Part shown: positions 22 through 844 of the stretch, piece after piece
Numbering within the stretch: the first letter of the stretch is position 1
Layout: every line of letters begins with the position of its first letter
Source: an uncultured Bacilli bacterium
GTDB lineage: Bacteria > Bacillota_I > Bacilli_A > RFN20 > CAG-826
Direction of reading: 5' to 3'
NCBI GenBank assembly: GCA_905236715.1
Contig: CAJOMQ010000002.1
Span: forward strand, 1-64,000
Length of the DNA: 64,000 nucleotides
Position numbers and translations under genes: made by a program
Notes under the pieces: model-generated
What the model saw: only the letters and a program-made list of their open reading frames with translations
Databases searched by the model: none
What the model was told of the DNA's origin: nothing

Positions 22-80
22 GATACCAGGAACCGATTTTCCTTAAGTGGAACCGATTTTTGAAAGTCGGAACCGCTCCC
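22..80. repeat. Three direct repeats GGAACCG(ATTTT) spaced exactly 20 bp; IS21-family-like terminal repeats
   Basis: GGAACCGATTTT at 29-40 and 49-60, GGAACCG at 69-75, period 20 bp. Confidence 0.5.
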
Positions 81-99
81 TTTTTAACTGCAATTTTTA

Positions 100-609
100 T
101 TAACGTTTTTTGATAATTGGAGTTACTCGATAAATTGGTTTACTCTCATCTAGGTGATTGTTGGCCAAGATTGTTTTTGGTCTTAAATAGTATTTAGCAT
201 CCACGAATCCTAAAGTGCATTTGCCATCACTTGTTGCAATTTTGCAAACAATTTGATTTTTTATAAAATTTTCTTGCACCATTACTTCATTTTTGAAGAA
301 ATCTCCCATACTTATCAAATTCTTAAGTTTTCTTTTGACTGTTTTCCTATCATTATTAGGTCCAAGCGAATAATCTGATTCAGCAATTGTTCCTTCATAA
401 CACTTTAGGAAAAAATCTTCAGTAGACAAACGTGTTTTTAACCCGGTCAAATGAAGAAAATTAGTTTTAAAGAATTTAAGAATATAACTGTTTGATTGAA
501 CAAAATTGGTTGATTTGATGATAATGTCGCAATTAAGCAATTTAAAATAAGATTGAGCGGAATCAATTAGTGCTTGCTTGATGTTAAATTGTTCTTGATT
601 GATTGCCAT
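100..609 (-). CDS. PBECR4-like (BECR-fold) nuclease domain protein, putative
   Basis: 169 aa; motif layout FLHLTG(L) ... FFxxCYEG..I.ESDY ... MGDFFKNEVMV resembles PBECR4 proteins from memory. Confidence 0.5.
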   Translation of the reverse strand: MAINQEQFNIKQALIDSAQSYFKLLNCDIIIKSTNFVQSNSYILKFFKTNFLHLTGLKTRLSTEDFFLKCYEGTIAESDYSLGPNNDRKTVKRKLKNLISMGDFFKNEVMVQENFIKNQIVCKIATSDGKCTLGFVDAKYYLRPKTILANNHLDESKPIYRVTPIIKKR

Positions 610-615
610 ATTACG

Positions 616-717
616 AAAAAAAGCGTTTTAAGGTGCGCCACCACGTCTATGTCAGTATTTTAGATCGCTGACCCGATGTATAGGGTGGTCTTTTAACGTC
701 TCCCATCCCTCTTGACA
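616..717 (-). ncRNA. Putative structured ncRNA directly upstream of the PBECR4-like CDS
   Basis: Starts downstream of a near-consensus promoter; internal pairings CCACC/GGUGG and GUCAG/CUGAC; ends in U7 tract 7 nt before the CDS ATG. Confidence 0.5.
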
Positions 718-722
718 CTTAT

Positions 723-752
723 ATTATCATTTGGCCAATATGCATCTGTCAA
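723..752 (-). promoter_or_regulatory. Promoter TTGACA-N18-GATAAT
   Basis: Minus strand TTGACA (747-752), 18 bp spacer, GATAAT (723-728). Confidence 0.6.
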
Positions 753-844
753 GAAAAACCATCCTATTTCTTTATAAAGAAAACGAGACCATCACTTGCT
801 TAGATGCCTCATTTTAGCACTTAGAACATTTTGATAAAATAATT

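Follow-up and report, generated by a model that had tools for sequence, protein, structure and literature searches.

A candidate mobile type III-like toxin–antitoxin module in which tandem RNA pseudoknots precede a PBECR4 gene

Close to the end of contig C2 of a 1.29 Mb genome in 25 contigs, a short RNA is placed immediately before the gene of a PBECR4 protein, which raises the question of what such an RNA does there. The stretch of DNA that was analysed comprises bases 1–64000 of this contig (64,000 nucleotides) and is called the window here. We will argue, with a probability of roughly 0.8, that the locus is a mobile type III-like toxin–antitoxin module, in which a pseudoknotted RNA would inhibit a PBECR4 RNase toxin that is freed when the RNA level falls.

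The module is read from the minus strand, in the order promoter, RNA of about 100 nt, U7 tract and PBECR4 coding sequence (Table 1). The candidate antitoxin RNA lies directly upstream of the gene in the same orientation and shares one promoter with it. A sequence-only reading of this DNA had recognized in it the layout of type III systems, and this is indeed what we find: a promoter, a pseudoknotted repeat RNA, a U-tract and an RNase-like gene. The TTGACA-N18-GATAAT promoter that it had pointed out is the top match of the region, and both hexamers are conserved in the copies of SIG217 and RUG11348, with a diverged spacer sequence. Its RNA sequence, U7 tract and ATG (609) are correct as well, except that the gap between tract and start codon is 6 nt and not 7 nt.

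Table 1. Features of the module in the window.
Feature	Position	Strand	Details
Sigma-70-type promoter	723..752	-	TTGACA 752-747, 18-nt spacer, GATAAT 728-723; 11/12 consensus matches
Candidate antitoxin RNA, ~100 nt, three tandem H-type pseudoknots	616..718	-	U7 end 622-616
Pseudoknot 1	683..716	-	S1 GUC 716-714/GAC 700-698; S2 GGGAUGG 709-703/CCACCC 688-683; loop 3 GUUAAAAGA
Pseudoknot 2	651..677	-	S1 AUCG 677-674/CGAU 667-664; S2 GUCAG 672-668/CUGAC 655-651; loop 3 CUAAAAUA
Pseudoknot 3	622..644	-	S1 GUG 644-642/CAC 635-633; S2 GGCG 639-636/CGCU 625-622; loop 3 CUUAAAA
PBECR4 candidate toxin, 169 aa	100..609	-	PF18813, E 6.5e-19
Module extent, candidate mobile unit	23..800	.	blastn vs SIG217 MAG (L013)

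No Shine-Dalgarno (SD) sequence was found between U7 and the ATG, which confirms the earlier observation, and no classical terminator hairpin was found before the gene; the U7 follows directly on pseudoknot 3. A hairpin with a T-run is present in relatives outside the window's clade (L052, L070, L133, L138). As for the missing SD in the window's clade, one can speculate that the toxin is translated very weakly or in a leaderless manner, perhaps after processing of the transcript.

The protein matches the PBECR4 profile PF18813 with 69.5 bits, compared to a cut-off of 27, and has both the catalytic His and the C-terminal Ser/Thr of the family, to which it can be assigned on these grounds. The conserved residues are His53, Lys89, Pro144 and Ser/Thr146; His53 is invariant, L54 and G56 are invariant or nearly so, and Ser/Thr146 is found in all close members. 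In PMC5512222, His and Ser/Thr are said to define the PBECR RNases. From its sequence, the window protein is predicted to be a metal-independent endoribonuclease of the BECR fold; the fold rests on the Pfam assignment, because the only structure model, calculated from the single sequence, is unusable (pLDDT 35). A comparison of the PBECR4 profile with the PDB gave no sequence relative, and PBECR4 was not found by name in the literature searched, which consisted of open papers. According to the searched passages of PMC5512222, phage-BECR domains occur within injected polyvalent phage proteins and as solo phage genes; an RNA partner is not mentioned in these passages.

We now turn to the fold of the RNA. 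Conventional minimum-free-energy folding does not set it apart from shuffles (z 0.18), but this measure is uninformative here because the fold is pseudoknotted. A descriptor of H-type pseudoknots was employed, with the order S1, loop 1, S2, S1', A-rich loop 3 and S2'. The three-pseudoknot score of the window RNA was reached by none of 2000 dinucleotide shuffles (0/40 in an earlier run), and by none of 1500 random pieces of the window. The linear order is GUC ... GGGAUGG ... GAC-GUUAAAAGA-CCACCC for unit 1, AUCG-G-GUCAG-CGAU-CUAAAAUA-CUGAC for unit 2 and GUG-GU-GGCG-CAC-CUUAAAA-CGCU for unit 3, which continues into the U-tract. The number of units varies among relatives: L031 has four, L052 and L070 (Clostridium estertheticum) have two each. 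The tandem pseudoknot repeats that characterize type III antitoxins are accordingly present, as three degenerate units in the window and as 2–4 in relatives.

The pseudoknots are supported by covariation. In unit 2, for which the stems were excised according to the model, 7 of the 10 pairs are changed on both sides, in 33 cells (18 distinct sequences), and 92.8% of the cells pair, values that were reached by none of 500 shuffles. Sliding the partner by one base lowers the pairing to 34–59%. This unit contains the GUCAG/CUGAC helix (672–668/655–651) of the sequence-only reading, which is hence confirmed and covaries. For unit 3, 4 of 8 pairs are changed on both sides (0/500 shuffles for both the cells changed and the covariation score), and for units 2 and 3 jointly 8 of 18 (12 sequences), the alignments in these two cases consisting of whole units with hand-trimmed sequences; slid partners collapse the signal of both knots. 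Alignments were made unit by unit because a full-length MAFFT alignment misplaces the gaps of loop 3. As far as can be judged from the sequences, the covariation shows that the RNA structure is under selection.

The S2 helix of pseudoknot 1 is swapped in relatives, to GAAGAA/UUCUUC in L018 and to GGGAU/AUCCC in L032, while L019 has GAGGA/UCCUC together with GCC/GGC. The other helix suggested earlier, CCACC/GGUGG (688–684/642–638), had to be rejected because relatives alter one side only: CCACC becomes UUCUUC, UCCUC and AUCCC in L018, L019 and L032, respectively, and GGUGG is unchanged. It is replaced by the pairing of CCACCC with GGGAUGG (709–703), and of GUG (644–642) with CAC (635–633).

The linkage between RNA and gene was followed by a PF18813 profile search that covered 281 genomes of the order together with class and phylum samples, and the upstream regions were read. 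In the window's clade, the RNA stands upstream of all 17 full-length toxins, and no toxin without RNA was seen. The distance from RNA to start codon is 4–21 nt, except in L016, where a further promoter-like stretch and an SD separate the gene from the RNA. A covariance model of units 2–3 was also run over 276 genomes and gave 56 strong RNA sites (E<1e-9). Downstream of these lie ca 16 intact PBECR4 genes and ca 17 recognizable remnants, a few of which, such as L016 and the contig-cut L083, are in fact intact genes that the classification rule did not recognize; at 18 sites tblastn finds no PBECR4, although several have a short N-terminal stub, and five sites are cut by contig ends. No alternative effector recurs at the 56 sites, where only intact, decayed or missing PBECR4 is seen.

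An intact toxin is absent at about two thirds of the 56 sites, and some of the toxin-less "orphan" RNAs may be assembly effects, because many toxins are decayed and most of the genomes are fragmented MAGs. Unit 2 is kept equally well without and with the toxin (a mean of 8.7 and 8.8 of 10 pairs, respectively). Such an asymmetry, with the toxin lost and the RNA kept, would be expected of a toxin and its antidote, and is an indirect indication from sequence comparison. One example of toxin decay is L003 (1319–1594), where an internal deletion has joined an incomplete RNA to the last third of PBECR4. The sequence-only reading had named three outcomes that would speak against it, namely an RNA confined to its own genome, an RNA region that is a degraded gene, and a lack of covariation. 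None of these was observed: many genomes have a conserved copy of the RNA, its region is not a degraded gene, and the changes in its stems are compensatory, beyond all 500 shuffles.

The module appears to move. It is absent from genus-mates and differs between close relatives, and window positions 23–800 match the Erysipelotrichaceae MAG SIG217 (L013), which belongs to another genus, over 778 nt with 95.2% identity (blastn). Among named records, Erysipelotrichaceae MAGs are family-level relatives of the source genome. In L013 (2122–2208), L015, L022, L023, L027, L028, L033 and L038, the module comes directly after a tRNA gene (for Leu, Arg or Met), and in L013 a tRNA-trailer-like sequence of ca 45 bp flanks it on both sides, like the duplicate of an attachment site. 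This pattern fits a selfish or defence module.

Some further observations concern the surroundings. At the contig end (window 23–100), and likewise after the toxin gene in L013, there are repeated GGAACCGATTTT motifs, which look like remnants of insertion-sequence ends. Between the module and a tRNA-Thr, the window has a transglutaminase-like gene (PF01841) and a regulator of the DeoR/HTH_11 type (845–1991). The matching region of SIG217 is without these two genes.

More distant PBECR4 genes are also preceded by structured RNAs. In L052 and in the C. estertheticum plasmid locus L070, two pseudoknots, a terminator and an SD come before the gene. On plasmids and phages, two or three tandem repeats of 52–57 nt are followed by terminator, SD and gene, as seen on plasmids of Enterococcus faecium (L133) and Pediococcus (L138), in Macrococcoides (L134) and Avibacterium (L142), and in Streptococcus phage Javan100 (L139); the repeats are near-perfect in the more distant members. 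L133 (NZ_OR234015.1, 11377–11919) is on a vanA plasmid, and a nearly identical gene with two 55-nt repeats is present in ca 77 Enterococcus plasmid records, where it is possibly a plasmid-maintenance module. In eight arrays (L133, L134, L138, L139, L140, L142, L143 and L045) with segments picked by eye, the loop of hairpin i and the linker n-i have complementary segments in 24 of 25 pairs, compared to 13 of 54 other combinations. With such pairing the loop helices would nest, and the array would be closed from one end to the other. To our knowledge, a nested loop–linker plan of this kind has not been described for a type III antitoxin.

The window's own genome contains two further PBECR4 loci, L041 and L068 (contigs C8 and C1), which together with L026 and L036 form a second clade. 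Upstream of these genes lies a different conserved RNA of ca 200 nt, with the motif GUCAAA...GGACCUGAC...GGAGUUC...AGAAGAUAUUC, and a terminator; its covariation, from four sequences, is only modest. An RNA of the tandem type is absent before L055, L135 and the large multidomain PBECR4 proteins. In L135 and L149, from Ligilactobacillus salivarius plasmids, PBECR4 begins 4 nt after the gene of a 166-aa protein and RNA repeats are not seen; a protein partner may take the place of the RNA antidote here. We consider it fairly probable that the stand-alone PBECR4 genes make up a large, previously unrecognized type III superfamily in Bacillota, their plasmids (including E. faecium vanA plasmids) and phages, with ToxI-like pseudoknot antitoxins coupled to an unrelated RNase. 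The RNAs would be of three architectures or more, among them local pseudoknots in tandem, as in the window, nested loop–linker arrays and a single structured RNA of ca 200 nt.

For the module in the window, the following mechanism can be proposed. A single promoter would give the ca 100-nt RNA with its three tandem H-type pseudoknots. Most of the transcription would stop at the U-tract, into which the third knot runs, such that the RNA accumulates, and occasional read-through of this leaky terminator would yield the mRNA of the PBECR4 protein. The excess of pseudoknot RNA would bind and inhibit the toxin. When transcription or RNA stability decreases, as upon phage infection or loss of the plasmid or island, the stable toxin would be freed and would cut RNA, which would correspond to a role in defence or addiction.

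An alternative to this mechanism is that the RNA is a cis-acting leader, similar to an attenuator or riboswitch, that controls only the transcription or translation of PBECR4 and does not bind the protein. The close spacing to the start codon (4–21 nt), the U-tract, the lack of an SD and the fusion to the start region in clade A would all agree with this. However, an RNA built of 2–4 repeated pseudoknot units is unlike most leaders, and its knots stay intact at sites that have lost the gene. In addition, terminator and SD are separate elements in distant relatives, and the same arrangement defines the ToxIN loci, which are found by the same descriptor. We consequently regard a mere leader as improbable.

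Another option considered was that the RNA activates or aims the nuclease as a guide or scaffold, in a ribonucleoprotein of the AbiF/Cas13 kind, instead of inhibiting it. Although gene order and size are similar in AbiF-associated RNAs (PMC12373285), the RNA has no variable, spacer-like segment, its variable positions being those of the covarying stems. Also, Rfam gives no AbiF match, the protein is PBECR4 and not Abi_2/HEPN, and the loss of toxin with retention of RNA suits an inhibitor better than a cofactor. This makes a guide very unlikely. Equally hard to credit is that the association is a hitch-hiking remnant and the RNA a transposition or integration element of a mobile cassette. The unit is compact, often lies beside tRNA genes and has IS-like ends nearby, but in different families, and on chromosomes, plasmids and phages alike, the RNA keeps its place at the PBECR4 start codon, with differing sequences and a common pseudoknot logic, and its covariation speaks for selection on RNA structure.

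Close in architecture is ToxIN/AbiQ (PF13958), where a promoter and tandem H-type pseudoknot repeats likewise precede a toxin gene. As controls, six ToxN loci from the same bacterial class were subjected to the same descriptor and showed three pseudoknots each, with two in one locus. Their S1 is typically GGUG/CACC and their loop 3 AUUAAGA, which is close to GUG/CAC and the A-rich CUUAAAA of unit 3 in the window. The toxins, on the other hand, are unrelated in sequence (hhalign probability 0.2%), the window protein matching PF18813 only and not PF13958. Pseudoknot 3 of the window continues into the U-tract and the gene is without an SD, different from ToxIN. Textbook type III loci have a separate terminator hairpin and an SD, both absent in the window's clade. 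The window module is not assigned to ToxIN, because homology of its toxin to ToxN was tested for and not found. With the phage-BECR RNases (PF18813), it shares the family, the invariant His and the C-terminal Ser/Thr.

Concerning AbiF, the sequence-only reading had suggested a resemblance to its leader RNAs, which is not supported. An Rfam search with the window RNA gave no match even at E<=10, including the AbiF RNA, which Rfam contains as RF03085 (PMC12373285), and the RNA resembles the ToxI pseudoknots instead. Neither RF03085 nor Abi_2 is matched, the protein being PBECR4, and the module is for this reason not assigned to AbiF. The related suggestion, of an RNA from a known class that is combined here with a different, BECR-fold effector, agrees well with the ToxI-like pseudoknots and the PBECR4 domain.

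CptIN and TenpIN have about two repeats of 45–50 nt (PMC12373285), similar to the 52–57-nt repeats of the PBECR4 plasmid loci, and the core fold of CptN is that of ToxN (PMC5086642). No match to any type III toxin was found in PDB sequences or NCBIfam, libraries that may lack TenpN. PADLOC includes ToxN (as AbiQ) and not PBECR4. The module is a candidate for a previously undescribed type III family, in which the toxin would be of a new type and the RNAs are outside Rfam. If this is true, the RNA-antidote principle has been assembled again with a nuclease unrelated to ToxN, an uncharacterized Pfam family on resistance plasmids and phages obtains a function, and there are new RNA families to add to Rfam and PADLOC, from which they are absent.

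Type III systems have been described as pseudoknot RNAs with toxins of the ToxN fold (PMC5086642), with AvcID (PMC10511110) and AbiF (PMC12373285) as exceptions. In AvcID the toxin is a deaminase and in AbiF an Abi_2/HEPN protein, compared to PBECR4 in the window. These two systems demonstrate that type III-like neutralization by RNA is not bound to one toxin fold (PMC10511110, PMC12373285).
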